A stretch of 28,560 nucleotides of DNA, taken from a virus. Positions 2,261 to 22,147 of the stretch are shown here, one piece after another. Both the position numbers and the translations under genes were made by a program. Under the pieces are notes generated by a model, which saw only the letters and a list, made by a program, of their open reading frames with translations, was not told where the DNA came from and ran no database searches. Location of the stretch: IMG/VR virus record IMGVR_UViG_3300037558_000962, positions 1-28,560 of that record. One strand, 5' to 3'. Each line of letters begins with the position of its first letter. The first letter of the stretch is position 1.

Positions 2261-3625
2261 ATGAAACAATTGTATACACCCCAGCAAAGGGCACACGACT
2301 TCTTTGTAAACCGCCTCCTATCAGGGGGTAACACCCTCGACTCATCTCAGATGGGCACGGGTAAGACTGTAGTCGGGGCTCAGGTAGCCTCGTCAGTGAT
2401 CAAGCAATCACCCACCATCAATCGGGTAGCTGTGATCTGTCCCAAAGCCGTCATCCCCTCATGGTCCTCGGAGTTAAAGGAGTGTGGGCTGGAGCCTGTG
2501 TTCATCCACAACGTGGAAAAGCTTAGGACTGGGAAGACTGAGCACGTATGCCGCCTCGGTAAGAAGAACTTCGGATGGGATCTGTCGAAAGATACACTCG
2601 TTCTGGTCGATGAGATCCACAAATGCAAGGGGCCATGGTCCCTCAATGCAAACCTGCTGGTGGCTCTGGTCCGTCAGGGATTCCGGATCCATGGTATGTC
2701 AGGCACGCCTTGTGAGTCACCCATTGAGATGAGACCCCTCGGTTATATGCTGGACCTACACTCTAACGATCAGGCGAGGAACAATCTACGCTCTTACTTC
2801 GGCTGGCTTAAAAAGATGGGCTGCTACAAAGGACACTGGGGTGGTTGGGAGATTTCAGAACCACGTAAAGCTCAGAAGAAAATCCGCAAATCTATTTACG
2901 ACATCAGCACTAAGGGTCTGACCGTGTCAGATTTCCCTGATTCTTTTAGGGATAACCGTGTCATCGTGGATCCAATTGAGTTCAAAAACAACACCAAGAT
3001 AATTAAGAGTTACAAGAACATGAAGATATCGGAAGAGGATATGGTCGAGTATGTAGCAACAGGTAAGCTGCCTGACTTTGACGATGACGATGACACACCT
3101 ATCATCGTGAAGATTCTAAAAGCTAGGCAAGAGAGTGAGGCTTACAAAGTTGTGGACATTGCAGAGATGGCGCAAGATGCTGTGGCTGAAGGACATAGCG
3201 TAGTTGTGTTCCTGAATTTCACCGAGTCTTTGCGTGAAGTAGCAGCTCTTTTAGACTGTGAGTTTATCGATGGCTCTGTCCCAGCAGAGGAAAGGGAAGA
3301 GATCATTCAATCTTTCCAAGCTGATGAGACACATTGCATTGTAGTGAATGCCGCCACAGGGGGCACAGGTATATCCCTCCACGACATCAAAGGAGACAGG
3401 CCCCGATTGTCCCTCATCAGCCCGAGCTTCAACGCCAAGGAGTTCGCCCAAGTTCTGGGCCGGATCCACCGTAACGGGGCTAAGTCAGACGCCCTTCAAA
3501 AGGTTCTACTGTCACACAATTCTATCGAAGAGTATGTCATGAAAGCTATAGCTAAAAAGCTAGAGGCAATGGACACGATTCACCACTCTAACATTTGCAC
3601 TTTAACAACTACCTCTTACTCATGA
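2261..3625 (+). CDS. SNF2/DEAD-like superfamily 2 helicase
   Basis: A 454-residue superfamily 2 helicase or DNA translocase. Seen in the sequence: a PQQRAHDFF entry motif near residue 7; Walker A MGTGKT at 31-36; motif Ia region VICPKAVIPSW at 58-69; DEIH (motif II) at 117-120; SGT (motif III) at 147-149; an acidic insert (DFDDDDDTP) before the second RecA-like domain; a motif V-like NAATGGTGISL; and QVLGRIHR (motif VI with arginine finger) at 397-404. Motifs and length fit the compact phage SNF2-like helicases, which remodel or unwind DNA using ATP in replication or recombination. It abuts the previous gene and overlaps the next by ATGA. No nuclease or DNA-binding domain is fused. The exact role is not determinable. 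Confidence 0.9.
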   Translation: MKQLYTPQQRAHDFFVNRLLSGGNTLDSSQMGTGKTVVGAQVASSVIKQSPTINRVAVICPKAVIPSWSSELKECGLEPVFIHNVEKLRTGKTEHVCRLGKKNFGWDLSKDTLVLVDEIHKCKGPWSLNANLLVALVRQGFRIHGMSGTPCESPIEMRPLGYMLDLHSNDQARNNLRSYFGWLKKMGCYKGHWGGWEISEPRKAQKKIRKSIYDISTKGLTVSDFPDSFRDNRVIVDPIEFKNNTKIIKSYKNMKISEEDMVEYVATGKLPDFDDDDDTPIIVKILKARQESEAYKVVDIAEMAQDAVAEGHSVVVFLNFTESLREVAALLDCEFIDGSVPAEEREEIIQSFQADETHCIVVNAATGGTGISLHDIKGDRPRLSLISPSFNAKEFAQVLGRIHRNGAKSDALQKVLLSHNSIEEYVMKAIAKKLEAMDTIHHSNICTLTTTSYS

Positions 3626-3945
3626 AAGAACCCACAAATACTCAGACTAAAACACTGCATATCAATGACACTAAACTGTCATTGAAGGCCCGTGTTGATG
3701 ACTCCGATGTCAATCCTTCCGGATGGTCCATCATCGCATTCACACACAGCGCCTCGATTAGATGCGTGCGAGCCCATCAAGTAAAACATATGGATCGATT
3801 CATCCATGCTATCGCGGCTATCTGCTACGACACATCACAGCATGAGGAGATGCTGCATTACGAGGAAACTCTAGCTATCTATGATGCCCTAATGGAAATA
3901 ACCAACAACACATTCGCTATACATGACCAAGGAAAACAAAATTAA
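3622..3945 (+). CDS. Hypothetical protein, 107 aa
   Basis: A 107-residue protein, start MKEPTNTQTK. The chosen ATG overlaps the helicase TGA (ATGA at 3622-3625). An upstream ATG at 3595 would overlap by 31 bases and is less likely. The first half reads as beta strands (TLHINDTKLSLKARV), the second as helices rich in His and Met. No family recognised. Its position directly behind the helicase suggests a linked role, but nothing in the sequence shows what that is. Confidence 0.55.
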   Translation: MKEPTNTQTKTLHINDTKLSLKARVDDSDVNPSGWSIIAFTHSASIRCVRAHQVKHMDRFIHAIAAICYDTSQHEEMLHYEETLAIYDALMEITNNTFAIHDQGKQN

Positions 3946-4159
3946 AATGCTCCATGATTCCCGAATCCAGATCCGGAATCTTGATGCTAAATGGGTGGCC
4001 AAGAAGCGTGAGATATACGCCAACTTAAAAGACACCCTAGACTTGGAGCCTAAGCACGACAACACCCTATGGGATTACTTGGTGCATGGATTAGAATTCT
4101 TACGTCATGACATAGATGAAGCCCTAGAAAACAAAACCAAACAAACCCGTGATAAATAA
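3923..4159 (+). CDS. Hypothetical helical protein, 78 aa
   Basis: A small, charged, probably all-helical protein (KMLHDSRIQIRNLDAKWVAKK...). Two starts are possible: the ATG at 3923, overlapping the previous gene by 23 bases, or the ATG at 3947, one base after the previous stop and behind an A-rich leader that contains AAGGA. The second fits the leader style of the following genes; the first is listed as the longer form. The 3' end carries the first copy of the 17-base A/C repeat. No function assigned. Confidence 0.55.
   Translation: MTKENKIKMLHDSRIQIRNLDAKWVAKKREIYANLKDTLDLEPKHDNTLWDYLVHGLEFLRHDIDEALENKTKQTRDK
4129..4145 (+). repeat. A/C-rich 17-base leader repeat, copy 1
   Basis: AAACAAAACCAAACAAA, identical to 4426-4442. 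It ends exactly three bases before the GTG at 4149, as copy 2 does before the ATG at 4446. This is best read as an unstructured ribosome-loading leader that replaces a Shine-Dalgarno sequence. Confidence 0.6.
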
Positions 4160-4722: not shown

Positions 4723-5029
4723 AGAACTATTGGCGTTACATACTGCTACCAGCGAGCGTTGTCGTAGCATTATGGAGTCAAAGAACAAGGACTACACGGG
4801 AGGCTCAGAAGCGTGCGACCCGTTCGCCAACTTCCGTGCGTCCGAAACCGTAGGCATTCACCCTATCAAAGGGATCCTGCTTCGGATGCAGGATAAGATT
4901 CAGCGGATCAATTCGTTTGCGAACGACGGTAAGCTATCAGTCAAAGAAGAATCAGTCAACGATGCCTGCGAGGACATCGTTAACTATGCGATTCTTATTA
5001 AGGCTATTGCTTCCGAGGATCAGGGTTAG
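4712..5029 (+). CDS. DUF1599 / Nmad1-like protein (MazG-like fold)
   Basis: A 105-residue protein with the signature order of the DUF1599 family (also named nucleotide modification associated domain 1): KNKDYTGG at 24-31, DPFANF at 36-41, ILLRMQDKIQRI at about 55-66 and ESVNDACEDIVNYAIL at about 80-95. The family belongs to the helical NTP pyrophosphatase-like (MazG/dUTPase-type) world and is common in phages. A role in nucleotide-pool control or DNA-base modification has been proposed for it. It covers the full family length. It ends the plus-strand block; its TAG overlaps the stop of the giant minus-strand gene. Confidence 0.75.
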   Translation: MTHEELLALHTATSERCRSIMESKNKDYTGGSEACDPFANFRASETVGIHPIKGILLRMQDKIQRINSFANDGKLSVKEESVNDACEDIVNYAILIKAIASEDQG

Positions 5030-8000
5030 TCCCCCGTCGGAATGTAAAGATCATACTTGTCTCGGGCATTGAGGTAGTCTGAGTATCTTAGCTGGAGCTT
5101 GCTATCAGTAATCATTCTCCGCTTCATGGGATCGGACATGACGGGTCTCATGATTAACTCTAATCGATTAAGTCGGAGCCTTTCTTTACTTACCCCAAAA
5201 GATTTAGCATCTTTCTCTATTGAAAATAGACTCTTGCCAAGTTTTTCTGCACCGATCACAGCTCTAGAGAAGTCATTAGCTTGGTAGATTCTTACCTTAG
5301 CGAACTTGTCATACTCATCCTTCACATCACTCGGGCTCATGGTTTCTTTTTCAAGAGACATCCTGTTGTTCCGGTAATCCTCCATATGGTTTCGGAGATA
5401 CCTCCGGAATGTCTTATCCACGTCAAGCTTATATGGTTTAACAGGCAGAACCTCTTTCCAAATTAGACCCAGTGGGCTGGTGAACCACGCCTCAGATTTG
5501 TCTGCGAAGACAGCATCAAAAGAATCTTTAGCTGCCCTAAATGTTCTCGGTTCGTAGGCCCTTTTCCAGACCTGCTCCAGTAATGTGAAGGCACCCCAGT
5601 CTTCACCCTCTTGAACAAGCTTTCGACCATACTCATCCTCATTAAACATCACATCAGTGAGGGCACCAAACAGGATTTGCTCGGATGCAAATGGTTTAAG
5701 TAAACCATCTACCCATAGAGTTTTTGAAACGGCACCACCAATGTCTCCTTTGAGTAGGGCTTCCAGTCCTCTTACGAATGGTTCTTGATAAGCCGCGAAA
5801 GGGTTTAAGAAAGTTAAGTCCGTCCCATATATTTCTCCGTCTTCTGTTTTATAAAAACATATACCCGCAGAGCGCATCCACTTTGGCAGACCTCCTCGGA
5901 TCATATCCATCTCATCCTCGTCATCGAATCCAAACAGTAGTAGTTGACTACCCTTTGTGAGGGCTAACGATGCAGCCGTAGTTGTTAACGCTCCGAGTGC
6001 TCTTCGTTTACCCCTCTTCCTGATGACTGGGTTTTTACTAGCCATCTCTTTTTTAGCTTGGAAGATCCCGTTGATAAATACTCGGGGAACATCCGCAGCA
6101 AATCGAATATATGGGGCAATCACTACACCCATAGAACTGCGCGAGAACGTCTTAATTATTGGTAAGGCTCGGCTATATGATTGGGTTGTGTCCTTAACAA
6201 TCTCAGCAGCCATCTGTTTAAGTCCTGATGATGGCGTATTGTTTGGACCTGAAATCATTTTGCTAAGTGGGTCACTTGGGGGTGCCTGTTTAGCTGCTTC
6301 AACCAGTGTATCTAATTCAAAGTTGTATAGACCTATCTTAAAGAAACCATCAGCCGCTGAAGCAAGCCGACCACCCAACTTCATCAAGGCATCTGATGCA
6401 CCTTTGGCTCGCTTGGCTCCAGTCTTAGTAAGTTCCCAACCGTCGAGCCCATACTTAGCTAACAGATCAGCAGCTCCCTCAGGAATAGATCCCTTAGATT
6501 TCGTATTAATCTGGTTAGCCATTTGTTGATGGAGCTCACCAGCTTTCTTTAGATCTGCTTCAAGATCAGCATAAGTAGTTCGGCCAGCTAAAAGGTTTTG
6601 GATCTGCGTTACTTCCAACTCATCCCCGAAAACATCCATGGTTTTTAGTTCAGTCAGGTGCCAGTTTAAATCAGCCAAAGAACCTCGTGCCGCTTGAACC
6701 ATTAGAGATTGGTTGCTGTTTATGTCAGCCTCACCCATAACAGAACCTATCGCAGCAAGTCCACCAGCAGCTTCCTCAAACAGAAGTTTTCCACCACCCC
6801 AGTAGCCCTGCATTGGTCCGAAATACATGGCATTACCTACCATGTTTCGGAAATAAAATCCTACAGATCCTAATGTCTTTAGAGCGAGAGAGTATCCCGT
6901 TGCCTTTCTGATAAAAGAACCTATACGAGTTTCAAACTCAACACGCTCGTTGTTAATGTCACGCATTTCTTTCGGGTCACTAAACAGATCTTCAAATTGT
7001 TCTGCAATATCTCCCTTGAAATACATCCCCTTGATAGGCGCGAGATCTTCCTCGCCCGTGTCAGCTTTTAGCTGAGACCAATCTTCATACTTTTCTGGAT
7101 CTTTATCATACTGTTCTTTGGTAACTAACCAAGGATCGGCAGATTCTAATCCAAGCTTTTTGATCTTGTTGAAGAACGACTGGTTGGCCAGCATACTAGC
7201 CGTATGGAGAATAGAGTGCCCAAGATTTGTAGAGCCTGCTTCTTCTCCGAACTCTCCGAGTAATTCTCTGACGGGATCGGGAATGTTCTTCTTCTCGTTG
7301 ATAGTCTGGGCTATCTTATTTAAAGCTTTGTCGTTGAACGAATCTTGAAGGACGATGTCTTGAGTAGATGAGCCTTGCTTAATCCTAAGTTGTCGGCGGG
7401 CTTCACCATGCTGGTATCCTTTGATAAATGATCGCATCATTTTACGACCAACGGAAGCGTGATGCTCAGGGTTATTAACCAGATCCTCTTCGACCATCTG
7501 TCGGGCCTCATTGTATCCGACACCATGCTTCTGCATTAAGGCATCAACATCTTGTAGAGCTTTCTGTTTCGCAAAATACAACACAGCTTTGTCCCGTGTC
7601 TCTTCATATACATCGTCCTCTAAAACTTTAGCCGCGAAGTCATTGTCCTCAAACATCCTATACCTTCTTGTGATATAGATTCCACGATCAAAGTTGAACG
7701 CCAAGTTAAGATCTGCTACATCCATGGATCCTCCAAAAACATCGACACCTTTCTTCGATAGCTGATCCTGAAGTTGACGCATCTCTACTATCAAGGCATA
7801 CATCTTTGGTGAAACCGTAAGGAGATTTTTCAATGCGTTGTTCCGCACGTTAAGTTCAGCAGCTCTGTTCTTATTTCTGAACATCATGATCTTACTCGCC
7901 TTAGCTTTCGCGGCTGCATCAATAGCAGCTTTGCGATCTGCTTGATCCATTATCTTCATCGCTTTCGCAAGGTCTGAAGCATGATCAGAATCTACTTCTT

Positions 8001-11000
8001 CCTCTTGAGCGAATGTTAATTGAGAGCCATTGGTTGAACCAGATGCATGGGCAATCAACGTAGGAGGTATAGGCTGACCTAACCTTTTTTCTTCCTGCAC
8101 CAAGAGACGGTCATGCTTCTTTTGATATATTTCTACAATAGACTTAGTCTCTCTGATGAATGCATTCGTTTGATTAAAGAAACGAACAACTCTTTTGTCT
8201 GCTCTCCGTTGGAATGTTCTGATCCAGAACCTTTTGAATTTAGTTCCAAAGGTTCCGTCCTTAGCTTTGATGTCATACTCATGTAGCTCCATCAAAGGAA
8301 CGTCGAGCAGCTCAAGCCACTGACCGATCTCAACCTCCTGCATATCCACCTCGTTGAGGAAGTCGGGGATCTTAGCATCAGCCCCGAACCTAGACTCAAG
8401 GTCTAGATTACGCCTTCTTTCTCTAGACGATCTACTATCCTCGCCAACGCTTCCTCGTAAATCTCTTCTTCGGATGTTTGCTGTGGATACAGTGAAGGAT
8501 CCTGCATTGCTTCCGGTGATTGATCGGTATACGTCATTGGCTGCGGTTGCGTAGTCGGGGGCTTCTTCATCTTTTCCGGAACCGAATTCCGTGTGGACTG
8601 CTTTTTCATAATACCATAATATTGCTTGTGCTTCTGCTGGAATCATTTTGATTCCATTGTTTTGTTCTAATTTGTCCATTGCATTATACATGGACAACCT
8701 CATGAATCTTCTGTGACTACCATTTTGTGGGGCTTCAACAAGCTCATGCCCATCAACAATCTTTTCTAATTGATTAGTTGCTTTCCTTAGTTCGTTATCA
8801 AGAGGAGAAATCTTTTCCATCTTCTCCCCCTTTTTAAGGGTTACCCACGACTTAGTCTTCTCATCATAATACTTTGATCTATTGGCTGGAGAAGTGTAAT
8901 AATTTTTCAAAGCCATTACGACTTCAACAGAACGCTTTCGTTTCCTACCTAACTTGGCTAACTTAAACAACTCTCCTTTAGGATCTTTAGTTAAGTATGC
9001 GGCAACGGCATCGTCAAACCGCTTGTTCGTTTTTCTTTGCTGGGCAGGGGTAGCCACTTTCATTTGTGTCCCCGCTGTTCTACCGAAGGTTCTCATAAAC
9101 CAGAGATCCATGGTTATAGAATTAAATTTACCGTTAAGGTTGTGGTAGAATGATCCTAATTTAGGGCCGAAGATAAGGGCGAAGGGGACGGTTTCATCTA
9201 TGAGTTCTCCTTTGAGGAGGTCAGACGCATCTTGTTTAGTAAAATCGAGCTCAGAAACTAAAGCTTCTTTCAACTCCTTAACCGTTCCAGATCTAGCAAG
9301 AAATTTTTGCATCTGTTCCCAAGTATACTTGGAAACCAAACCATCCATTAGCTTGAGTTGATTTGTAATTGCAGATGTTCTAGTGCCTCTTACCCAGTTG
9401 TTTCCAGTGTCCGGATTCTTAGTTTCAGCAGGGGCAAATTTTCCAGTCTTCTTCCAGTTCTGATAGATAGCCCACGAGTCCTCAGTTTGTGCGGCAACTT
9501 TGTTACCGTTAGATGTTACCGCTAATAAAGTTTTGAAGACAAAGTTATCTTCGGGTTTTTTAATATCTGGGTCTAGCTCCTCAAAGATATCCACAGACAT
9601 CTGAACTCTTTCCTCATACCAAGAAACGAAATCAGGATACTCATTCAATGCGCGTTGGAGAACTCCATAAAGTCTCCCACCCATCCTATCAATCTTATCC
9701 TGATTCTTTGGATCCCAATGAATCCGATCTTTCGGATCCATCATCTCAAAGAATTTCATTCCAATCATATGTGGCCGACTACCTTTCGGACCTGCATCAA
9801 TGTTCTTTGTTCCATGGAGCATGGCATCATCGATAAGATCTTGCCCTTTATGAACTGGGGCGAGGCGAACATCAGCTCCGAACCTAGACTCTAGGTCTAT
9901 AATGCTATCTTTACTGGAATCAAACCTCTTTGAGAGGGGGATGATCTCTCCTTTTTTATCGCGGGTAATCGGCTCCCGTGATTTGATTTGGTTTCGGTTA
10001 GGGACAATAAACTCAGACCCCATCTCACCTGATGATGTTCGGCCACCTATACCTCTTACGGCATCGTATTTAATACGACCATCACGCATCAATATGTATA
10101 GGGCCTTCTTAAAAAAGTCACTACCGGCTGCCATGTCTTTTGGATCGATTTTATCCGTGTCGGAGCGTTCGCTTCCTGTTTTTTTCCTGAAATACGCGGG
10201 CGAGAACCATATAGTTGCATCAACCATCTCAGAGTTTCTCGCTTTAGCGAAACCTGCGCGAGGGGACTTGAAGTATTCATAATTTTCTGGCTTTGCGTCA
10301 CGGATTCCTGATTCCTTGTATGCGTTGTTAACGGTATGCTGGTATTTGATCTCTGCTTCAACCAGTTTCTGTTCCTCTGGAGTTAACTCCATCCCCCCCT
10401 CTGATGGAGAGGCCATGAGAAATGGGGTGAACGCTTTTCCTGCGACCAACTCTGATCTCTGTTCTAGGTCTTCTGGCTTTACATCATTATTCTGTGCATC
10501 AACTAAATTTATTTTTTTACTTACCGACCAAGAATCTCTTGTTGGGACACCAGTTCCCTCGGCCATGAAGTAGCCCTGAGCAAAATTCAATTCCCCAGCA
10601 GAAGGTTGCAGTGCTCTCCCGTCTTTGTAATAACCAATCCTAGCTCCTTTATACATATACCCCTGAGACTCAGCAGCGGCATCAACCATTTTCTGAACGG
10701 TCTCCATGTCACCCGCTTCTATTGCTGCCATGTATTGCAAATCAACATCAGCTCCGAACCTAGACTCAAGGTCCAAGGTAGCCTCGTCATCAGAAGAATC
10801 GTCAGGAGCCAGCATCCGGTAGCCAACAGCTTGCTTAACTAGAGCGTCTACAATCTGTTCTCCGTTACGTGTATTGTAAGTTACGCTACGTGGAGCTGGA
10901 CGGTAGGCTAACTCCATAGCACGTAGCTCGCGAACAACATTGTTAACGGCGTCACGCATTTCAGGAGATAAATCTTTACGAGTTCTGTGGTAAGTGAGCT

Positions 11001-14000
11001 TACTGAGAAACGCTTTAAGGTATTGGATAAAGCTTGCAAGCAAGCTAGGGTTAGTCTGCAAGAAAGCTATCTGCTCGTTGGTGGTCATCCCACGCATGGC
11101 CATACTGGCATGAGCTGCAAAGGCTTCGTTGGCTAACCTGTATTTCTCAACAGAAGATACTTCAGCATCTTCACTCCGCATACGAGCAATAGCTTCTGCT
11201 TGCTCACTCTCCGGATAGTATTCTTTAATGATCCGAATAAAGTCAGTGTCATCCATAGACTGAATAACAGCAAGGACTTGCTCGTCAGTTAAGATTTGGT
11301 TCGCGGCAGCGTGCCCCATCTCTTCGTTTAACAGAGCACCTAACAAATGTGTTTGTCTGTCTGGATCAATCTCGCTATCAGAAACTAACTGCGATAGTTT
11401 AACGGCAGCTCGTTTAGGGTTGAAGACTAGCACACCAGTCTCACCATCTATCTTGACAACAACAGATGATGTCTCATCTGTAGACATAACAATTTCAGGG
11501 GGGAGATAATCCCGAACCCACTCTGTAAACTGTTCAGCTTTTGCTTCTAACCTAGCTTCAGCAAGGATACTAGATTTACCACCATAAGCGTCAGCAATTT
11601 TGGCACGTTCTGTCTGTGTTTGAAACAGTCTTGTTGCAACGTGATTCGTGATCCCTGCTTGTGTTAGGGCACCACCAACCCTGACTGATGACATAGCATT
11701 GGCGATACTTTTCTGTAATGCAGTAGGTGGCAGTTTAGCTCGGCCAAAGGTTACAATTTTAGCAACGACTCGTAGAATTTTTTCTAGTAATGATGGCCCA
11801 AGAAACCCACGGAACTCTTGGCTGGTCAAGGTGTAGGCAATAAACTCTTCTACATTAGCTGTTCCGTTTAAGAATACTTCGTCTTTTAACTCTTCAGCTT
11901 TTACTCTGGCTTCGGCTCTGTGTGCTTCAAGTTCCGCGAAGCGTGTGTTGTGCTCAGGAGTTCTCAACTCTACAGGCATCGCCACAAAGTCTACACTAAA
12001 CGCGTGTGCATATTCATGAAGCAGGGTTCCGGCTATACCACTCTCACCTGTGGCACCCCGTGGATTAATTGTGATTATAGGCTGTCCAGTCTCGGCGTCA
12101 TATTCTCCAGAGAATCCTTGATCAGATGATTCTATCTTGAAGACGATGGTCTTAACAAACTCTGGGTTATCTAAAATAACTTTGGCCAGTGGTCTTAAAA
12201 ACTCAGGCTTACCATTTTCTTTTATCAACCGAATAGCTTCCAAGACAGACTCGACATCACCATCAACCAAACCTAGATCCTCAATTTCTTGTAGGTTTGT
12301 AGCTTCGATAACTGCATCAGACTCTTCAGTAGTAATGGAGTTTTGTCTAAAGGTAGTTATATGATGTGACACTAACTGGAAGAATTCGTCTACGCTACTA
12401 TCACTGAAGTCTTGTGCGACATCCCCATATGCCTTGACCATCTCCTCTTTTATGAAGGCAAGAAGATCTGCATCTGTAGATACGTCAGGGTGGAGTGATG
12501 GTGAAGACAAGCCAATTGCTTGGAGAGCAACAATCATATTGTATGCTTCCGGATTAGTTTCTGAGATCTTATTTACATAGGTCAGAAACTCTAGCGTAGA
12601 GTCGCTCGCTACATTGTTACCTTTAACTAGGTGCTGTAGTAGTAAGTCAACAAGAGCGGACGCGCTTTTGTTTTGTACTGACGAGTTCTCACCTAAAACT
12701 TTTTCATCTATGAACGCGATTAGATCTCCTCTAAGCTCCTGATCTTTTTCAAGAGCTGTAGCAATTGTAGCTAGGTTAGATCGTAAATATCTACCAGTTG
12801 CCGTTTTCGGAAGAACTGGAAGTGGGGTAGGTGTTTCAGCTAATCCATTCCCTGCTGACGCATTCTTGTCAGCATCAAAATTAGGGTTTTTATCTATTCT
12901 CTCCCCCTGTTTGACGAGGTCACCAAGGTTAAGAACCTGTTGTTCTTTGCGAGACCGAGCCATGTCTTGGAAGTATCCCAAAGAAAAGTCGCGGAGCTTT
13001 GCCATATTAAATGGTGCCTGTGTCGCGTTATCGTTGGAAGGATTTTGCTGTGCAGTCTCGTAGACTTTCTTCTTTATTGAAAGACCGAGAGACATAGCAG
13101 CCGCAGTGTAATACCTACTCCTGCTCTGAGCACTGCCAACCATTATCCGCTTCTTATCAGGTCCAGTAGGTGGATCGCCTGCTTCGATAAATTGTTTTAG
13201 AGTTTTAAAATCTTCCGCTAAAGCAAGCAACTCCCGTAGAGTTATGTTTGGATCCGACCCAGTTCCCTCAACAGATGGGAAAGGATTCTTAACTTTGATA
13301 TCCAGCCTATCTTCTGGAGTTGTTTCTTGAAGCTGCTCAACATCTTGGAGTAGTCCTTTAACTCTTGAATAATTAAAATTATTCTTACGAATATTTCTGA
13401 AGTCTGCCCATGCCGAAACTAGACCACCTCTAACTGGAACTAGGATGTCAACCACATACGCTTGGTTAGATCCTTCTCGTTTTTCTATTACAAAAGAAGG
13501 GTTAACTTCAGAGCCTGCTATGGTCGAAGCTTCATATACTTCTTCTGAAACAGGAATAAGGATGTGACTCTTTAAGAAAGTCATCATCTGTTGTGGGTCA
13601 TTGTTAAATATCCCGTTACCTTCTTCATCTAAGTAAACGTATTTCTGATCAGCCGAAAATAAATCAGGTAACTTGTCCTTAGATGTTACATTCTTTTTGA
13701 AGACAGGATACTTCTCCTCAATTAAGTTACTCAATCTCTTAGATAAAGCCCTGAAGTTATCATCCCCTGTTTTGTCTAGCGTTAGTCCAAGAGCTTGTAA
13801 GTGTTCCTGAATTATAGAGACAGGGAAACCTCCGTTAACTAAATCTTCTAGCTGTGCTTCGTCATGCTCTGTGATATCCTCGTCAGCAATATCGTCTTCA
13901 ACTTTTAACGACCTAGCTGCTTTACTAAGAGCGGCATACCTACGGGGGTCGATTAATTCGCCGGAGTTTAAACCATCTTCAATTGCTTGCTCTGCTTTCT

Positions 14001-17000
14001 TCCTAGCTTCGCTATCTTTGGGTAGTTGAGCAGCTTGTTCTACCGCTTGTTCCCATTTACCCCTAGCAAGTTTAAGCGACAACATAGCGTTGTTATACTT
14101 TTGCTCTGGTGTTTTATATTGGTGCTGTCCCACCGGAGCTGAGTTTGCTTCAGCATCTCCTGTCTCAGGATCTACTCCACCCTGCTCATTAACCGCTCTC
14201 CTAGACTCTGAGGTCCAGCGGCTATTTCCAATCATACTCTTCTGCTTCTCTTCAGGAGACTCTTGATTCTCAAAAGTTTTATCTGTGTCAGGGTTAGCTG
14301 AAATCTTTTCTTTTAGTTTACTAACCTCCCGTTCAACATCTTTTTTAGCCTGCTCTAGTGAGATGATACTCTCTTCTTCGATATACTTGTTTACTTCTGC
14401 TGCACTCTTTGTGTCCCAAGTTCCGGCGGCACGTTCTTTATCAATCGCCGCATTTAGTATAATGTTAGCGCGATCAGTAAGATCAGAACTTAGTTGCGGT
14501 TTCTTATTCTTTGCATAACCAGCTAGGCTTATCACAAATTCAGGCTGCGGTCCTTCTTCAGGATCCACAGCGGGTGCTTCGCTTTCACTAGGCTCGGGTG
14601 CTGGGGTTTCTCCCTGCTTCTTAGCTTCAGCTTTCTGTTTAGCTTCAGCGTTTAACTTCTTTAAAACTTTTTGTGCGGCCTCCGCAGTTTGTGGAGCCAG
14701 TGTTTTTAGCTGAGCTCTTTGTTGGGCAAGTTCTGGGTTTGCTTTCGTAGCCTCCGCGACTCGTTCGTCAAAGTCAGCCATCACAGAACTCTCTAATGAA
14801 GCTAGTCCACGCCTGTCTGTAACAGCATTGCCTAGAACAGGCACCTTTCTAACAAGAGCACCACCTACTGTAGCAGTCCCACCAAGAACAGCTCCTAGTT
14901 TAAAGGCGTGCCAAGCTTGACCAAGCGTTTCACTCAGAGATGATTCTTTATTTTGCCAAGCATCTTCAACCATTTGATTTATGATTGTATCAAGTGCTTC
15001 TTCAGTGCCTTCACCAACCACGGCTCCTGCAAATGCTAGGCCCTTAGAGCTTCCATATTTTTTAAAGGTTTTTGTAATTGATTGGGCCATCAAACTTTTC
15101 AAACCTTCTACAGAAGAAACAGATCCACTAAGTCTGTCGGTAACAGTCTTGAGTTGTTTGAAGCTCATACCTTTAAGGAAGGCACTTTCAACACCACCGA
15201 GCTTCCCACCAAACATTTGCCCAAAGCTGGCAGTTATAAGACCCGTTACGGTTCCACCCATGAGAGCAGTTCCGTATGCAGTTGAATGAGCTTCTTGTTT
15301 TACTCTAGCTTCATTCCAATCGTCAGCCCACTCACCGTCTTTAAAATACTTGGCTGTAAGCTCCTTCTCTAAGGAAGAGAAAACAGAACCATACGTAGCC
15401 CCGCCGGATCTAACTGCTGCTGGAATAAACGTGCCCACTGCTTTGACACCTACATGCTTTGCTAGTTGGGAATTGTAGCTCTTGATAGCTCCTATTAATT
15501 CACGCGGCTTTAACCCTTTTAAGACACCAGCTTTTTTAATTCTTTTAGCTACCGCCGCCAGAGTTTCTTCCTTTAGCTCCCCTGTTGCTGCGTTTCGATA
15601 GACCCGTTGGCTAAGACTATATTTACCCAGACCTCCAGTTAAAGTATTCTTCATCGTATTACCGATGAGTGTCCGTGCCACAACAGCTCTTCCTAAGATA
15701 CCCCTAGCAGCAGCACCGCCAGCAGATTTAGCTGCGAAATACCCACCAGATACTGAAAGGCTACCGCCGAACGTAACTCCGGCTAACCCTACAGCACCCG
15801 CCGTCACGACCATGTCTGCTACCATAGGAGCAAGAGCTTCTGAGAGGTCTTGCCCGAAGCCCATCTCCACACCGTAGATGTTTGCTAATTCTCTATTAAG
15901 ATTAATTTGTTTAGCATTCTCAACGATCCCATCGCGACCCCAGTCAGTGTCAAGAAGAGCACCAGCACCGTAGAATAAACCCGTGACACTATGCCACGCG
16001 CTCATACCAAACCCACGCCACTTAACACTTACGTCATTATCACGAATAAAATTTTCTAGGATCTCATGGTTATTTAAACCCTGCTGCTTACCCTCTGCTT
16101 TAGCTGATTGCCAGTCATCACCCATTGTTTCTGCAAGGACTTCATCAGTGCTTGAGAAATTGCTTTCTAGATTTGCTACACGCTTAACATCTTCAACCTC
16201 AATGTCTCGATCAGATAGACCAAATTCTGACAAGGCTGTTCTAAATTCAACGGGTTTAACATTAAGTGCATTATGGACTAATACCCCATAATATTTTGTC
16301 CTGCGAATATTGCTTGCTAGGTCATCTTCGTCAAACTCTCGGCCATCATAACCAAAAGCAGAGTCTTGAATACCGTCAGCATTAATCTTCTCAATGTAAC
16401 TTTCAACGGCCTGTTCAAATACAGGCCCAGATCTTTGTGTTATCTTTGAAAGCTGATCAAGGACTTGCTTTTTAACCACCTCATTTTTTTCTAATGCAAG
16501 GTCTTGCTGACTCTCAAATAGTTTTTGAGCCCTTAGAAGTTCTTCTTCATCTTCGTCAAACGTAAGAAAGTTAAATCCAATACGTGCATTACGTAGGGCA
16601 TCTCCTAACAGATCCTGTCCGCTATGCACAGTGTTAGCCCAAAAACCATATTCATCCTTCTTTCTTTTCGCTAGAGCTAGGCCCGTCATCTTCCCCCTCA
16701 AGTCTAGGAAATCTCTACCGTCACCTTCGTTAATGATGGCATTAATTTCTTGTAGTGCCGCATTACCTTCAGCTAATTCATGCTTAGGAATATCCCCATA
16801 CACACCACCCGCAGGCTCTTGTAATTTTTTTAACGCAAGAAAGTCCGATGCTTTTACCCCATATTTTTTGGAATTAGCTACAATGTTTTCAAAAGTATCG
16901 CCATCCTTTAAACGACCACCTACGAAAATTCTACTCCCATCTTCATCGAAATAAACACCAGCATCAATTTGGCCTGTCCCGTATAAGTTCGTGACAAAGT

Positions 17001-17439
17001 TTTTTCTAGCCTTCTTTACTTCCTTAGTAATATCATCAAGGTCATCAACGCTAAAACCTTCTGGTATTTGGTTCTCATAAACAGCGTTGTTAAAATCATT
17101 AATGTCAGCGAATCTTTCCTCGCTCATCTCCATCGCCTCTGGATCAAAGTGGGTGCTTAGAAATTTAAGATCATCCCCTAGAGAATTTTTGTTTTGTATC
17201 CCAACTAGTTTTTTTTGAATCTCTTCAGCATTATCTTGATTAAGAATTCCCTTGCCTACTAAAACAGAAGCTAAAGTGGACTGGATCCCTTGTTCAACTT
17301 CTTCATCATACTTCCCTATGGCTGTAAATTCTTCTCGTTGATTGTCAAAATAATTAGACCAAGATTCTACTGGGTCGTTATATTTATTATCGGGGTTTGC
17401 GGACCATACAGAGTATGGCGTTAGTTCTATTTCGTTCAT
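5026..17439 (-). CDS. Giant multidomain polyvalent-type phage protein, 4137 aa
   Basis: A single uninterrupted frame of 4137 codons, start MNEIELTPYS (A at -3). Order of segments: 1-480 charged helical; about 480-870 Gly/Ala-rich with several membrane-prone stretches; about 890-1060 charged and Pro/Glu-rich linker; HEYAH zincin motif at 1808-1812 with EE at 1864-1865; second zincin-like segment with EEMGH at 2039-2043; DLESRFGAD at 2223, 2515 and 3013; between the first two, a polyvalent ADP-ribosyltransferase-type module (AGD at 2242-2244, NQIKS at 2483-2487); between the last two, a GPKLGSF...MDLWF motif resembling HhH-GPD glycosylases (D2778); then a 1100-residue C-terminal region with hydrophobic patches, possibly LPD38-like. 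Such proteins are thought to be packaged and ejected with phage DNA. It follows the coiled-coil gene at 17488-18612. Transcription ends head-on against the left block, overlapping stops. Confidence 0.85.
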   Translation of the reverse strand: MNEIELTPYSVWSANPDNKYNDPVESWSNYFDNQREEFTAIGKYDEEVEQGIQSTLASVLVGKGILNQDNAEEIQKKLVGIQNKNSLGDDLKFLSTHFDPEAMEMSEERFADINDFNNAVYENQIPEGFSVDDLDDITKEVKKARKNFVTNLYGTGQIDAGVYFDEDGSRIFVGGRLKDGDTFENIVANSKKYGVKASDFLALKKLQEPAGGVYGDIPKHELAEGNAALQEINAIINEGDGRDFLDLRGKMTGLALAKRKKDEYGFWANTVHSGQDLLGDALRNARIGFNFLTFDEDEEELLRAQKLFESQQDLALEKNEVVKKQVLDQLSKITQRSGPVFEQAVESYIEKINADGIQDSAFGYDGREFDEDDLASNIRRTKYYGVLVHNALNVKPVEFRTALSEFGLSDRDIEVEDVKRVANLESNFSSTDEVLAETMGDDWQSAKAEGKQQGLNNHEILENFIRDNDVSVKWRGFGMSAWHSVTGLFYGAGALLDTDWGRDGIVENAKQINLNRELANIYGVEMGFGQDLSEALAPMVADMVVTAGAVGLAGVTFGGSLSVSGGYFAAKSAGGAAARGILGRAVVARTLIGNTMKNTLTGGLGKYSLSQRVYRNAATGELKEETLAAVAKRIKKAGVLKGLKPRELIGAIKSYNSQLAKHVGVKAVGTFIPAAVRSGGATYGSVFSSLEKELTAKYFKDGEWADDWNEARVKQEAHSTAYGTALMGGTVTGLITASFGQMFGGKLGGVESAFLKGMSFKQLKTVTDRLSGSVSSVEGLKSLMAQSITKTFKKYGSSKGLAFAGAVVGEGTEEALDTIINQMVEDAWQNKESSLSETLGQAWHAFKLGAVLGGTATVGGALVRKVPVLGNAVTDRRGLASLESSVMADFDERVAEATKANPELAQQRAQLKTLAPQTAEAAQKVLKKLNAEAKQKAEAKKQGETPAPEPSESEAPAVDPEEGPQPEFVISLAGYAKNKKPQLSSDLTDRANIILNAAIDKERAAGTWDTKSAAEVNKYIEEESIISLEQAKKDVEREVSKLKEKISANPDTDKTFENQESPEEKQKSMIGNSRWTSESRRAVNEQGGVDPETGDAEANSAPVGQHQYKTPEQKYNNAMLSLKLARGKWEQAVEQAAQLPKDSEARKKAEQAIEDGLNSGELIDPRRYAALSKAARSLKVEDDIADEDITEHDEAQLEDLVNGGFPVSIIQEHLQALGLTLDKTGDDNFRALSKRLSNLIEEKYPVFKKNVTSKDKLPDLFSADQKYVYLDEEGNGIFNNDPQQMMTFLKSHILIPVSEEVYEASTIAGSEVNPSFVIEKREGSNQAYVVDILVPVRGGLVSAWADFRNIRKNNFNYSRVKGLLQDVEQLQETTPEDRLDIKVKNPFPSVEGTGSDPNITLRELLALAEDFKTLKQFIEAGDPPTGPDKKRIMVGSAQSRSRYYTAAAMSLGLSIKKKVYETAQQNPSNDNATQAPFNMAKLRDFSLGYFQDMARSRKEQQVLNLGDLVKQGERIDKNPNFDADKNASAGNGLAETPTPLPVLPKTATGRYLRSNLATIATALEKDQELRGDLIAFIDEKVLGENSSVQNKSASALVDLLLQHLVKGNNVASDSTLEFLTYVNKISETNPEAYNMIVALQAIGLSSPSLHPDVSTDADLLAFIKEEMVKAYGDVAQDFSDSSVDEFFQLVSHHITTFRQNSITTEESDAVIEATNLQEIEDLGLVDGDVESVLEAIRLIKENGKPEFLRPLAKVILDNPEFVKTIVFKIESSDQGFSGEYDAETGQPIITINPRGATGESGIAGTLLHEYAHAFSVDFVAMPVELRTPEHNTRFAELEAHRAEARVKAEELKDEVFLNGTANVEEFIAYTLTSQEFRGFLGPSLLEKILRVVAKIVTFGRAKLPPTALQKSIANAMSSVRVGGALTQAGITNHVATRLFQTQTERAKIADAYGGKSSILAEARLEAKAEQFTEWVRDYLPPEIVMSTDETSSVVVKIDGETGVLVFNPKRAAVKLSQLVSDSEIDPDRQTHLLGALLNEEMGHAAANQILTDEQVLAVIQSMDDTDFIRIIKEYYPESEQAEAIARMRSEDAEVSSVEKYRLANEAFAAHASMAMRGMTTNEQIAFLQTNPSLLASFIQYLKAFLSKLTYHRTRKDLSPEMRDAVNNVVRELRAMELAYRPAPRSVTYNTRNGEQIVDALVKQAVGYRMLAPDDSSDDEATLDLESRFGADVDLQYMAAIEAGDMETVQKMVDAAAESQGYMYKGARIGYYKDGRALQPSAGELNFAQGYFMAEGTGVPTRDSWSVSKKINLVDAQNNDVKPEDLEQRSELVAGKAFTPFLMASPSEGGMELTPEEQKLVEAEIKYQHTVNNAYKESGIRDAKPENYEYFKSPRAGFAKARNSEMVDATIWFSPAYFRKKTGSERSDTDKIDPKDMAAGSDFFKKALYILMRDGRIKYDAVRGIGGRTSSGEMGSEFIVPNRNQIKSREPITRDKKGEIIPLSKRFDSSKDSIIDLESRFGADVRLAPVHKGQDLIDDAMLHGTKNIDAGPKGSRPHMIGMKFFEMMDPKDRIHWDPKNQDKIDRMGGRLYGVLQRALNEYPDFVSWYEERVQMSVDIFEELDPDIKKPEDNFVFKTLLAVTSNGNKVAAQTEDSWAIYQNWKKTGKFAPAETKNPDTGNNWVRGTRTSAITNQLKLMDGLVSKYTWEQMQKFLARSGTVKELKEALVSELDFTKQDASDLLKGELIDETVPFALIFGPKLGSFYHNLNGKFNSITMDLWFMRTFGRTAGTQMKVATPAQQRKTNKRFDDAVAAYLTKDPKGELFKLAKLGRKRKRSVEVVMALKNYYTSPANRSKYYDEKTKSWVTLKKGEKMEKISPLDNELRKATNQLEKIVDGHELVEAPQNGSHRRFMRLSMYNAMDKLEQNNGIKMIPAEAQAILWYYEKAVHTEFGSGKDEEAPDYATAANDVYRSITGSNAGSFTVSTANIRRRDLRGSVGEDSRSSRERRRNLDLESRFGADAKIPDFLNEVDMQEVEIGQWLELLDVPLMELHEYDIKAKDGTFGTKFKRFWIRTFQRRADKRVVRFFNQTNAFIRETKSIVEIYQKKHDRLLVQEEKRLGQPIPPTLIAHASGSTNGSQLTFAQEEEVDSDHASDLAKAMKIMDQADRKAAIDAAAKAKASKIMMFRNKNRAAELNVRNNALKNLLTVSPKMYALIVEMRQLQDQLSKKGVDVFGGSMDVADLNLAFNFDRGIYITRRYRMFEDNDFAAKVLEDDVYEETRDKAVLYFAKQKALQDVDALMQKHGVGYNEARQMVEEDLVNNPEHHASVGRKMMRSFIKGYQHGEARRQLRIKQGSSTQDIVLQDSFNDKALNKIAQTINEKKNIPDPVRELLGEFGEEAGSTNLGHSILHTASMLANQSFFNKIKKLGLESADPWLVTKEQYDKDPEKYEDWSQLKADTGEEDLAPIKGMYFKGDIAEQFEDLFSDPKEMRDINNERVEFETRIGSFIRKATGYSLALKTLGSVGFYFRNMVGNAMYFGPMQGYWGGGKLLFEEAAGGLAAIGSVMGEADINSNQSLMVQAARGSLADLNWHLTELKTMDVFGDELEVTQIQNLLAGRTTYADLEADLKKAGELHQQMANQINTKSKGSIPEGAADLLAKYGLDGWELTKTGAKRAKGASDALMKLGGRLASAADGFFKIGLYNFELDTLVEAAKQAPPSDPLSKMISGPNNTPSSGLKQMAAEIVKDTTQSYSRALPIIKTFSRSSMGVVIAPYIRFAADVPRVFINGIFQAKKEMASKNPVIRKRGKRRALGALTTTAASLALTKGSQLLLFGFDDEDEMDMIRGGLPKWMRSAGICFYKTEDGEIYGTDLTFLNPFAAYQEPFVRGLEALLKGDIGGAVSKTLWVDGLLKPFASEQILFGALTDVMFNEDEYGRKLVQEGEDWGAFTLLEQVWKRAYEPRTFRAAKDSFDAVFADKSEAWFTSPLGLIWKEVLPVKPYKLDVDKTFRRYLRNHMEDYRNNRMSLEKETMSPSDVKDEYDKFAKVRIYQANDFSRAVIGAEKLGKSLFSIEKDAKSFGVSKERLRLNRLELIMRPVMSDPMKRRMITDSKLQLRYSDYLNARDKYDLYIPTGD
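8377..8406 (-). repeat. DLESRFGAD linker repeat, copy 3 (residues 3013-3021)
   Basis: Third copy of the 27-base sequence encoding DLESRFGAD, at the border between the glycosylase-like module and the long C-terminal region. It differs from copies 1 and 2 at few bases. In the +1 phase this copy carries a TAG (8403-8405) that ends a protein-like frame. Confidence 0.9.
8403..8609 (-). CDS. Possible out-of-phase 68-aa ORF inside the giant gene
   Basis: In the +1 phase of the giant gene, an ATG frame of 68 codons runs from 8609 to a TAG at 8405-8403, the edge of linker repeat copy 3. Its product looks protein-like: Lys-rich N-terminus, Pro/Gln/Thr-rich middle (KKPPTTQPQP), then an amphipathic acidic helix (EEEIYEEALARIVDRLEKEG). 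The giant frame over the same bases is Ser/Arg-rich and looks less natural from about residue 2976 to 3011. It may be a nested gene, a frameshift product, the fossil end of a gene fused into the giant, or chance. There is no Shine-Dalgarno sequence. Confidence 0.25.
   Translation of the reverse strand: MKKQSTRNSVPEKMKKPPTTQPQPMTYTDQSPEAMQDPSLYPQQTSEEEIYEEALARIVDRLEKEGVI
9871..9899 (-). repeat. DLESRFGAD linker repeat, copy 2 (residues 2515-2523)
   Basis: Second copy, between the ADP-ribosyltransferase-type module and the glycosylase-like module. At DNA level this copy contains a perfect inverted repeat, ACCTAGA-C-TCTAGGT (plus strand 9882-9896). Confidence 0.9.
10747..10775 (-). repeat. DLESRFGAD linker repeat, copy 1 (residues 2223-2231)
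   Basis: First copy, behind the zincin-like segments and an acidic Asp/Ser-rich stretch (DDSSDDEAT), and directly before the ADP-ribosyltransferase-type module. All 27 bases match copy 3 except one. Confidence 0.9.
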
Positions 17440-17487
17440 TGTGCTTGAGTCTGACTTAGCAGAAGCTTGATTGTTTATATAGGGCCT

Positions 17488-18612
17488 TTATCCCATCGCG
17501 TTTTTGAGCATCAGTTTTTCTGCTGGCGTCATTTCTTTGGGCTTTTCATTTTTAAATGCCCTGATCTGCCGTCTAATTTCTTGCTGTTGCTCTAAGAAAG
17601 ATTGTTTTTCCTCAACTTTTTCCATGTCCACCCTATATTGCTTACCATTAAACTCAAAGATTTTACGAGCAACGAATTCTAAAAATACGTTTTGTTGCTC
17701 CTTTCGGTTTTTTGCTGGGAACGCTTTCTTTCTAGCCCCCTCCTTTCGCGCAGGGCCTTGCTCAGCGGCCATCTTAGCCAAATACGCTTCACCGGCTTCA
17801 TCAATATTTGACGCGTATATTGCCAACGCGTCATCAAGATCACGGGTTGCTGCCTCAAAATTTTCTTCATTCCTGTCACGAAGTTCTTCTTCCGCTTCAC
17901 CCTGAGCCTTAAGCCGAGCAGCATCAAGTCTAGCCTCATCACGTTGTTTCTGAAGATCCACAGTAGCACGGCCTTCTGCGGCCATTATGTTAGCAAGGTT
18001 TCTGAAATAAACTCCCTCGGCTTCTTCTCGGTCGGGGGTATCATTCAATACGTCTTGAGCTCTTTTGAAAAACTCTTGCCCTTCAGCAGATCTAATTGCG
18101 CTGGCGGCAGTTAATGTATATTGTCTTATGTTACGTTCACGGGCTTCTTCCCGCCGTAGTTTCGTTTCTGCCTCTGCTTTTTCTTGTTGTTCTTTCTGCG
18201 ATTTAAAACGAAGAGTATCCAAAGCACTTCTACCTATGCTTGGATAAGCCGCATTCAACTGTGGATTCTCAAGGAGAAACGTATTAACTGATGTGATTTT
18301 TTCCTCCGTCGATAAAGAGTTATCCTCTAGCACAGAAGGCAGTTTCCAAGTAGCCTGACGTAAAGCTTCTCGTGCCTTGTCTTGCTCCTCTATCTGAGTC
18401 TTAGATGCTTTAAAGTTTTGTTTCGCTGTTTTATAAGCAAGATCTTCACTACGCTCTTTCCGTTGAATAGCCCGATTCCTATCTAATACATCTAGCTGTG
18501 GCGTTATTTTTTGAGCCCTTCTTGCTTGTATGGAGGCAAACTCATCTGAGTTAAGTAAACCGTAAGAATTTTTAAGTCCGGCAATATCTTTTGAATAATC
18601 AAGTTCAGACAT
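17488..18612 (-). CDS. Charged coiled-coil protein, 374 aa, probable internal virion protein
   Basis: A 374-residue, mostly helical, highly charged protein, start MSELDYSKDI (A at -3). Long stretches rich in Glu, Lys, Arg, Ala and Gln, at about residues 135-160 and 215-290, have coiled-coil character. A less charged centre contains WKLPSVLEDNS and the C-terminus ends EKLMLKNAMG. There is no signal peptide or membrane segment. I recognise no named family. Composition and position between the terminase and the giant protein resemble the helical internal or ejection proteins of podoviruses. That role is inferred, not shown. It lies 18 bases from the upstream gene and 48 from the giant gene, in one probable operon. 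Confidence 0.75.
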   Translation of the reverse strand: MSELDYSKDIAGLKNSYGLLNSDEFASIQARRAQKITPQLDVLDRNRAIQRKERSEDLAYKTAKQNFKASKTQIEEQDKAREALRQATWKLPSVLEDNSLSTEEKITSVNTFLLENPQLNAAYPSIGRSALDTLRFKSQKEQQEKAEAETKLRREEARERNIRQYTLTAASAIRSAEGQEFFKRAQDVLNDTPDREEAEGVYFRNLANIMAAEGRATVDLQKQRDEARLDAARLKAQGEAEEELRDRNEENFEAATRDLDDALAIYASNIDEAGEAYLAKMAAEQGPARKEGARKKAFPAKNRKEQQNVFLEFVARKIFEFNGKQYRVDMEKVEEKQSFLEQQQEIRRQIRAFKNEKPKEMTPAEKLMLKNAMG

Positions 18613-18630
18613 ATTAAATAAAATTTAACG

Positions 18631-19395
18631 CTATTCTCCTTTAAATTGTTCCCGCACTCTTCTTTTGGCGGCTGCGGTATTCGCGGCAGCAATTGCTTGA
18701 GCTTCACGATCTTGTTCCTCCATAGCTTTTTTCATAAGGGTAGAGCGTTTTGTCGCAAGTATACCTGAAAGACCGACTCCACCCCTGACGATGTCACTAG
18801 CAACGTCACCATAGCCACGTTTTCTTACCACATCGGCTGTCCTCATGGCCCGCCTCAGCCCACGGCGGGGTGAGTAAACATTCTTAGTCGCACCTAGTTT
18901 ACCTACTTGTAATTTTGAAGGTGATTTACGAACGACAGGCTTATTAAAAAACTTTTGGCGATCTTTAGACAACGCTTGATATTTAAAATCAGAAGCCCTC
19001 TCGTCGCGCTTAGCGGTTTCTTGCTGAGCATTGTCCATAGCGTAAAAGTTTTTATCCCTCACCTTATTTCGGAGACGGGCATAATCGTATGACTCTTGTG
19101 CGTATGGACTTTGGTTCATGGTGGGCTTCAACCCATCACCACGCCCGATCTTGGGCACCTTCAAAGTTCTGTCACTATTCAAAGCACCCCGAGTAGATCT
19201 AACACCTGAGCCCTGTGTCCCTAGTCCAAGCTTCGGTGAATCATCTCCCGGCAAGGGGGGCAACTTTTTTTCCTCGGCATCAAGCTCTTCAGACGTGGGC
19301 ATTTGGTAGAGTTCCATTTGTTCCTTCGGAACACCCACTTTTGCGAGGATCTTTCTCCTTTGTTCAGCTTTCTGTTTCTCCGACATCTGCGACAT
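18631..19395 (-). CDS. Basic low-complexity protein, 254 aa, possible virion protein
   Basis: A 254-residue, very basic protein, start MSQMSEKQKA; a second Met at residue 4 is also possible. The N-terminal 60 residues are charged and Pro-rich (LPPLPGDD). The middle is Gly/Ser/Arg/Lys-rich without an obvious fold, with Tyr-Asp repeats (YAQESYDYARLRNK). The C-terminal third carries RRGLRRAMRTADVVRKRGYG and ends in an Ala-rich helix. Such a chain is likely partly disordered and may bind DNA or the partner virion proteins. It sits 32 bases after the terminase and 18 before the coiled-coil gene. No family recognised. Confidence 0.7.
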   Translation of the reverse strand: MSQMSEKQKAEQRRKILAKVGVPKEQMELYQMPTSEELDAEEKKLPPLPGDDSPKLGLGTQGSGVRSTRGALNSDRTLKVPKIGRGDGLKPTMNQSPYAQESYDYARLRNKVRDKNFYAMDNAQQETAKRDERASDFKYQALSKDRQKFFNKPVVRKSPSKLQVGKLGATKNVYSPRRGLRRAMRTADVVRKRGYGDVASDIVRGGVGLSGILATKRSTLMKKAMEEQDREAQAIAAANTAAAKRRVREQFKGE

Positions 19396-19427
19396 ACTTT
19401 AGATTTTATCTCTTTACGGCTACAATG

Positions 19428-21215: not shown

Positions 21216-21218
21216 AAT
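21190..21218 (+). promoter_or_regulatory. Possible rightward promoter
   Basis: TTGCGC and CATAAT with a 17-base spacer, placing a start near 21225, ten bases before the ATG at 21235. The -10 matches 5 of 6 consensus bases, the -35 only 3. The assignment assumes a sigma-70-like host enzyme. Confidence 0.25.
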
Positions 21219-21226
21219 TCTTGGAC

Positions 21227-21255
21227 ACAATAGGATGAGTTTCAATTCAAATCAA
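21227..21255 (-). promoter_or_regulatory. Possible leftward promoter for the terminase operon
   Basis: On the minus strand TTGATT and TATTGT are separated by 17 bases (4 of 6 matches each), reading into the terminase start at 21215. It lies within the first codons of the divergent gene, because the gap between the two starts is only 19 bases. Confidence 0.2.
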
Positions 21256-21807
21256 GACATACAGGAGCGAGCTGTAGAACTCTACAATTTAGATTGGAAG
21301 AATACTGCCATCGCTAAAGAACTTGATGTCCACCCCGCGACTGTTCGCAGGTGGTTTAAAAAACGTGGCATACCTGCAAGGAAACAAGGTTTAGTTGCAC
21401 CCGAAAAGGTTGAGGAATCAGGAGACAAGTTAGCAAAAGACATTGATAACAACCTCAACAACATGACAGATGAGGCAATCTTGCGAGCTAAACATGATGC
21501 TCGCGTAGAAGAAGATGAATCAATGTTAGAGATTGCTGAATCTCAAAGCAGTCCCGCTGAAAAATATCAGCATTATATTGCGGCGGCGGGAATTAAATTG
21601 CTGCGCGATAGTATGAAAAATCTTAAAGGTCCAAAGTCCGTAAGAGAGTTATCCGAATTGGATCAATTAATTAGAAGAAATTTAGGGCTTAATTCTAAGA
21701 CAGGTGGGGGTGGTAGTAGGATGCAAATTGATATTTCCATCCTCAACAACAAGAAAGCAGACAGAGGTTCTGGAACTATCATAGATGTTGAACCAAATGA
21801 TCAATGA
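21235..21807 (+). CDS. terS: HTH protein, probable small terminase subunit
   Basis: A 190-residue protein with an N-terminal homeodomain-like helix-turn-helix at about 8-45 (ERAVELYNLDWKNTAIAKEL, then HPATVRRWFKKRGI). The centre is acidic and helical, and a segment at about 100-145 is helical (KYQHYIAAAGIKLLRDSMKN). HTH plus a helical oligomerisation region next to the large terminase is the usual design of small terminase subunits, which recognise phage DNA and start packaging. Here the two genes diverge instead of being in tandem. A simple transcription regulator is the main alternative. The ATG is 19 bases from the terminase start. It overlaps the next gene by 23 bases. Confidence 0.65.
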   Translation: MSFNSNQDIQERAVELYNLDWKNTAIAKELDVHPATVRRWFKKRGIPARKQGLVAPEKVEESGDKLAKDIDNNLNNMTDEAILRAKHDARVEEDESMLEIAESQSSPAEKYQHYIAAAGIKLLRDSMKNLKGPKSVRELSELDQLIRRNLGLNSKTGGGGSRMQIDISILNNKKADRGSGTIIDVEPNDQ

Positions 21808-22147
21808 TTTTAACAACTACTCTGGTGAGTATGATCCTAAAAAAGATCCTTACCGTGATCGATCAAAGACTAAAACGGATTTTGAGTTCTTAAGCGAACC
21901 AATCACCGAGGACTGTTTTGCAGAAGTAATATTCTTCAGCATGTTTGAAAGTGCCCTAGTTGGTGTAATTGAACACGCTAATGGGGATCCGGCTGCTTGT
22001 TATTCTCAATCTGTGGTGCTTGAAATTTTAAAGGAAGAGCAAGGTTTATCTGAAGAAGGTGCCCGAACAGCTATTAATCAACTTATCGAAACAGATCTGG
22101 GGCCTTCGTCCCCTTGTTTCCTAGACACGTCTATCATAGAGAAATGA
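21785..22147 (+). CDS. Hypothetical acidic protein, 120 aa
   Basis: A 120-residue acidic protein. N-terminal part polar and likely disordered (SGEYDPKKDPYRDRSKTK). The rest is helical, with a hydrophobic helix CFAEVIFFSMFESALVGVIEH and a C-terminal LSEEGARTAINQLIE that resembles a small helical bundle. No family recognised. Two starts are possible, ATG 21785 or ATG 21797; both overlap the previous gene and the second follows a GAACCAA leader. The TGA overlaps the next ATG, so translation is coupled. Confidence 0.6.
   Translation: MLNQMINDFNNYSGEYDPKKDPYRDRSKTKTDFEFLSEPITEDCFAEVIFFSMFESALVGVIEHANGDPAACYSQSVVLEILKEEQGLSEEGARTAINQLIETDLGPSSPCFLDTSIIEK

Follow-up and report, generated by a model that had tools for sequence, protein, structure and literature searches.

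What kind of protein is encoded by a single gene that takes up 43% of a virus fragment? The window, that is, the whole stretch of DNA analyzed, is a fragment of 28,560 bases, and its largest gene is one minus-strand ORF at positions 5026–17439 that starts with ATG, contains no internal stop, and encodes 4137 amino acids (hereafter, the giant; all features described below lie on the same strand unless stated otherwise). A first-pass annotation had proposed that its product is an injected polyvalent protein. The long stop-free frame is conserved in relatives: contig L002 encodes a near-copy of residues 1–543 (98% identity), and full-length relatives of 3030–5134 aa adjoin the gene for the terminase large subunit (TerL), as in the window, in 29 other contigs, so the frame is not a chance ORF. 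The giant is conserved across a large uncultured marine phage family.

Our set comprised 29 further full-length giants, found through TerL relatives and a module search, to which 56 loci were added later. More than 100 TerL relatives were present in IMG/VR; neither DNA similar to the window nor TerL relatives were found in 50,697 phage records. The sole match in bacterial and archaeal genomes was a 7-kb contig binned as Opitutia (L226), which is possibly a misbinned phage and too weak a hint to name a host. Scans of the single window giant against Pfam and PHROG gave no significant family; the domain assignments therefore rest on relatives, profiles, and predicted folds.

Comparison with the relatives revealed three conserved blocks: residues 1–880 (positions 14800–17439; 30-row alignment A7), about 1060–2220, and 3021–4137 (positions 5029–8379; 27-row alignment A6). 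Membrane-prone stretches had been noted in the first pass; by hydropathy, the strongest of the whole giant (residues 534–563) lies inside the N-terminal block. PDB relatives of the N-terminal and C-terminal blocks were not found by profile.

The middle block contains a metallopeptidase domain at residues 1723–1925 (positions 11665–12273), which bears out the metallopeptidase motif read earlier from the sequence. Its metal-binding motif, HEYAH, occupies residues 1808–1812 (12004–12018), and the candidate third ligand is E1865 (11845–11847), a Glu that is invariant across 27 aligned rows; H1808, H1812, and E1865 together give the gluzincin-type pattern of HExxH and a downstream Glu. In alignment A5, E170, H173, and E226 were invariant and H169 was conserved at >90%, the first His of HExxH being lost in two homologues (L118 and L123). 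A profile of residues 1640–2220 matched 9sfn_G, described as “Internal virion protein” (E 4e-12), and 8vb2_A, the tetrameric ejection protein of PhiM1 (E 4e-9), both across HExxH...E. The predicted model of the region (pLDDT 77, pTM 0.44) gave no Foldseek match with E < 0.001, and the Z scores come from a second-look aligner: in VIA, the top 3 of 987 chains were N4 gp50 (two entries, Z 9.7 and 9.6) and 8vb2 (Z 9.4, rmsd 2.9), with unrelated rows at Z 7.0.

It is well supported that the closest solved relatives of this domain are two ejected proteins, N4 gp50 and PhiM1 gp48. N4 gp50, the virion RNA polymerase of that phage, which acts with gp51 and gp52 in the Schitoviridae ejectosome, is ejected and carries an HExxH domain (PMC12633501); it resembles the giant in the fold of this domain (C1, Z 9.7), in its great size, and in having 0–1 Cys. 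PhiM1 gp48 (PDB 8vb2) is a packaged ejectosome protein (PMC11440229) whose metallopeptidase-like domain is homologous to that of the giant. There are also differences. The window giant has a seam-bearing cargo slot, unlike N4 gp50, and is three times longer than PhiM1 gp48 or T7 gp16, with multiple enzyme modules. An RNA polymerase module was not detected in it by Pfam or PHROG with the single sequence.

A second domain follows at residues 1985–2176 (positions 10912–11487), with NEEMGH at 2038–2043. It had been described as a second zincin-like segment, and it may be one: HExxH is found at this place in some relatives (L128, L130, L173, L181, L197, and L217–L220), the window has EExxH instead, and a structure search with the domain returned helical look-alikes only. 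Some lineages (e.g., L217–L220, L197, and L181) carry HExxH in the second domain together with a first domain that has EExxH or is undetected, and EExxH recurs in both domains across lineages.

Between the second and third conserved blocks lies a stretch of 41–2075 aa with no conserved content. It is empty in several relatives, holds two modules in the window, and in other relatives carries DUF7178, ART-PolyVal, GNAT, and methyltransferase modules. The middle of the giant is almost certainly a swappable cargo slot. The claim of a new domain order was thus an understatement, since the order is not fixed; in the 59-kb relative L008 it is reversed with respect to the window, with the HhH-like module preceding the related frame module. 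The earlier interpretation was right in kind and incomplete: what is notable is a slot with an exchangeable payload, bordered by seams, in an ejectosome-type protein.

The seams are short repeated peptides. DLESRFGAD occurs three times in the window giant and borders both modules, at residues 2223–2231 (seam 1, positions 10747–10773), 2515–2523 (seam 2, 9871–9897), and 3013–3021 (seam 3, 8377–8403). Seam 3 is the start of the C-terminal block, and the last copy in the relatives falls at the homologous position. Seams are alike within one protein and different between phages: LQSRYGA-type peptides occur five times in L008, LETRFG-type four times in L110, and LGSGLGP-type six times in L117; L218–L220 have a VRETQAG-type and L175 a GTSFGD-type spelling. 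The pattern was defined after seeing the data, and shuffle and cross-giant controls came later. By this pattern, 21 slots with 19,051 residues in total contain 49 seams; shuffling the slots gave 7.1, and the 69,302 residues outside them contain 29. Among 44 nonredundant giants, the protein's own junction recurred 1.34 times per slot and the junctions of other giants 0.41 times (0 of 20,000 permutations as high), and inner seams were closer to the C-block seam of the protein that carries them (0.84 vs. 0.63, p 2e-4). No repeated seam was found in several distant giants with slots of 400–650 aa. In a different group of polyvalent giants (L135–L140), NYSIG stands at module borders, and these proteins are also without Cys.

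In two pairs of giants that are 97–98% identical, the members differ by one seam-to-seam cassette. In L219, an additional module stretches from PVRETQAGSL to IRYTQAGSL, whereas L218 carries only one PVRETQAGSL at this place. The second pair, L179 and L180 (98% identity), is set apart by a single ART-frame module between SGITG seams, with an identical 13-bp core at both ends. In the pair L189/L203, the difference sits at a seamless place.

Codons at identical seam residues agreed in 36% of cases, against 32% expected from codon usage. This near-agreement with expectation indicates selection on the peptide and not on the DNA, and in most relatives the seams appear to be kept as peptide. The window is the exception: its seam codons match at 14 of 18 places, in 27-bp near-identical repeats, a sign of recent copying. 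Within the viral collection, only the L114 phage (contig 3300030109_002021) carried the exact seam DNA of the window, which is therefore no widespread mobile site. That the seams are pure scars of DNA recombination was largely rejected on codon divergence, except in the window itself. It is likely that the seam acts at the protein level.

The second domain offers a possible link to the seams. Within the 27-row alignment, its ExxH is present in all giants that have seams, and loss of the motif coincided with loss of the seam in three independent lineages of the window's clade (sign test 0.25); several empty-slot lineages outside this clade retain the motif. The association is suggestive and underpowered, and we did not rely on it.

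Processing by MPTase domains has been proposed for polyvalent proteins (Iyer et al., 2017, PMC5512222), and the seam may be a cleavage site that releases the modules in the host, for which we put the chances a little under even. In most seams, the second residue after a Ser/Thr is hydrophobic, which would suit a gluzincin cutting before that residue, although this is only a prediction. The strongest alternative keeps the same ejected protein and leaves the seams uncut: they would be linkers for docking or folding, or traces of insertion through recombination microhomology, and the modules would act while attached to a membrane-bound body. The near-identical DNA of the three window seams and the 13-bp repeat shared by the ends of the L179 cassette are what insertion traces would look like, and N4 gp50, which shares the metallopeptidase domain, undergoes no processing on packaging or ejection (PMC5512222). 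Two observations speak against this alternative: in most of the other giants the peptide was kept while codon divergence at the seams came close to what codon usage predicts, and inner seams covary with the seam at the C block of the protein they belong to (p 2e-4, as above). We regard it as a serious alternative, with a probability somewhat below one half.

The cargo itself bears on whether the giant is an effector carrier. Module 1 (residues 2236–2515, positions 9895–10734) had been read as an ADP-ribosyltransferase (ART) type module. It shares an N-terminal hairpin and a C-terminal frame, QIKS..P.T.D..G..IPLS.RF, with the ART-PolyVal modules of L140 (E 5e-17) and L141 (E 2e-9), in which the frame encloses the Pfam ART-PolyVal core. 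The window module has the frame and gave no match to the ART core (H-Y-D), its center being longer than in L140 and L141; the first-pass reading is thus partly supported. The long-centered form also occurs in L179 (33% identity) and L190 (32%).

Module 2 (residues 2525–3005, positions 8425–9867) has an invariant K2760 and D2778 (alignments A3/A4). Modules with 52–54% identity to it occur in L007, L008, L107, and L114; the identity is about 30% for parts of giants of a podovirus-like kind, among them the giant of Limnohabitans phage DC33. Pfam DUF7178 was matched in relatives of the module. Its AF2 model (pLDDT 85.9, pTM 0.79) had as the first six rows in VIA DUF2419, the phage PUGT (gp46), and AGOG-type glycosylases (Z 6.7–9.2, at a low identity of 8–13%), the next rows being at 4.9. 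These matches are all, we assume, of the HhH-GPD type. Foldseek with the model gave no significant E value (all >0.1), and a profile of the module found no PDB relatives. A predicted fold of the HhH-GPD type is moderately supported; the glycosylase-like module of the first pass keeps its fold class and lacks a significant Foldseek E value. Phage DC33 (L003) is filed under Inoviridae, although in gene content it is similar to tailed phages of a podovirus-like kind.

Polyvalent proteins (PMC5512222) are encoded near virion genes and combine MPTase with ART-type modules and further effectors, as the giant family does, and the window giant itself carries an MPTase and an HhH-like module and adjoins TerL. 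A text search of PMC5512222 found neither a seam motif nor a Cys rule. An ordinary structural or tail-core component, with inserted domains that are purely architectural and deliver no effector, would fit the large conserved N and C blocks and the empty slots of some giants, which show that the cargo is dispensable. Structural parts would not be expected to consist of enzyme families (DUF7178, ART-PolyVal, GNAT, and methyltransferase) that change between near-identical phages, nor to keep the invariant Lys/Asp pair of the HhH-like module, and we consider such a component improbable.

The amino acid composition of the giant points to passage out of the virion. It has 1 Cys in 4137 residues, where 66 were expected from the window's other genes (Poisson P about 2e-27; the expectation was taken from these genes minus the two small neighbors, 69 Cys in 4331 residues). 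In 30 giants we counted 9 Cys in 118,595 residues, against 513 in 47,032 (1.09%) in 79 TerL homologues; the 56 further loci, some of which are near-duplicates or truncated, had 13 in 213,252. We then counted Cys in known ejected proteins. T7 gp15 and gp16 have none, like the nearly Cys-free giant, and gp14 has one; N4 gp50 (3500 aa), gp51, and gp52 and P22 gp7, gp20, and gp16 have none, which gives 1 Cys in about 7,860 residues for the ejection proteins of the three phages (L142, L143, L145, and L146). Most, not all, of the other virion proteins of T7, N4, and P22 contain some Cys. The likely reason for the loss would be unfolded passage through the oxidizing periplasm. We found no earlier statement of this rule in the literature searched, whose scope took in few subscription papers, and it is absent from a 2022 review of ejection proteins. 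Two of the rare cysteines of the family stand together in one cargo module of L108 (residues 2968 and 2975; weak DUF5591 match), perhaps as a metal or catalytic pair.

The gene order agrees with N4. On the minus strand, TerL (19428–21245; phrog_2, E 3e-11) is followed by genes for proteins of 254 aa (18631–19395) and 374 aa (17488–18612) and then by the giant, so that the order small–medium–giant is that of N4 gp52–gp51–gp50. Both small proteins and their homologues have no Cys. By position and composition, we propose them as analogues of gp52 (outer-membrane channel) and gp51 (periplasmic tunnel), respectively; homology of the 254-aa and 374-aa proteins to gp52 and gp51 was not found, and the likeness consists of the order and the Cys-free state. 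The plus strand of both flanks encodes replication genes (PolA, a primase-like protein, a PD-(D/E)XK exonuclease, a RuvC-like resolvase, and an SNF2-type helicase), and in L008 tail-fiber and virion genes lie elsewhere on the same strand as the giant. A nonvirion role, as an early or toxin-like product of the infected cell, is very improbable for a gene that shares its strand with TerL and two small Cys-free genes, opposite the replication genes, and whose product resembles ejected proteins in fold and Cys content.

Fold kinship, Cys depletion, and gene order make it very probable that the giant is an ejected virion protein, and its kinship with the ejected N4 gp50 and PhiM1 gp48 lends good support to the injected polyvalent protein suggested in the first pass. 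It is best read as the inner-membrane or cytoplasmic partner of a podovirus-type ejectosome. For the reading as a whole, by which the protein is ejected and has a cargo slot bordered by seams, the cleavage step excluded, we estimate a probability of about 75%.

A possible mechanism can be outlined. The 254-aa protein, the 374-aa protein, and the giant would form an ejectosome packed in the head and released ahead of, or together with, the DNA. In the giant, the N-terminal, metallopeptidase, and C-terminal blocks would make up the ejection and membrane machine, and enzyme modules would enter the slot as cassettes, each with one seam copy. The giant would be threaded out and would refold with its body at the inner membrane, presenting the cargo in the cytoplasm. 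The seams could be recognition sites for a partner that varies with their spelling, the best candidate being a peptidase of the same chain, which would probably cut them either within the head or once in the host cytoplasm. Host DNA, RNA, protein, or nucleotides could then be the targets of the freed modules, and the giant may serve in counter-defense or takeover. Put more generally, and tentatively, this phage family would have an injection payload that can be exchanged. Its carrier would be a giant ejected polyprotein with one dedicated slot and a self-recognized seam; effector cassettes would be added or lost from seam to seam and released after entry by the carrier's own peptidase. More widely, a near-absence of Cys would mark phage proteins that pass in threaded form through the tail and the periplasm.

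New here are the conserved blocks that frame one cargo slot with seam-bordered modules. They give a testable form, in cut sites and the route of module exchange, to an open question about polyvalent proteins, and they connect these proteins with the ejectosome proteins solved for N4 and PhiM1. The Cys rule provides a one-line sequence test for ejected proteins of uncultured phages, and the seams help to delimit effector domains, many without a family name, in a large group of marine phages.

A duplication was seen in the Pseudoalteromonas phage vB_Pun_Y3 (L005, positions 8579–21953), in which residues 1–319 of one large protein duplicate residues 3098–3416 of the preceding one with 100% identity; this is either a direct repeat of great length or an error of assembly.
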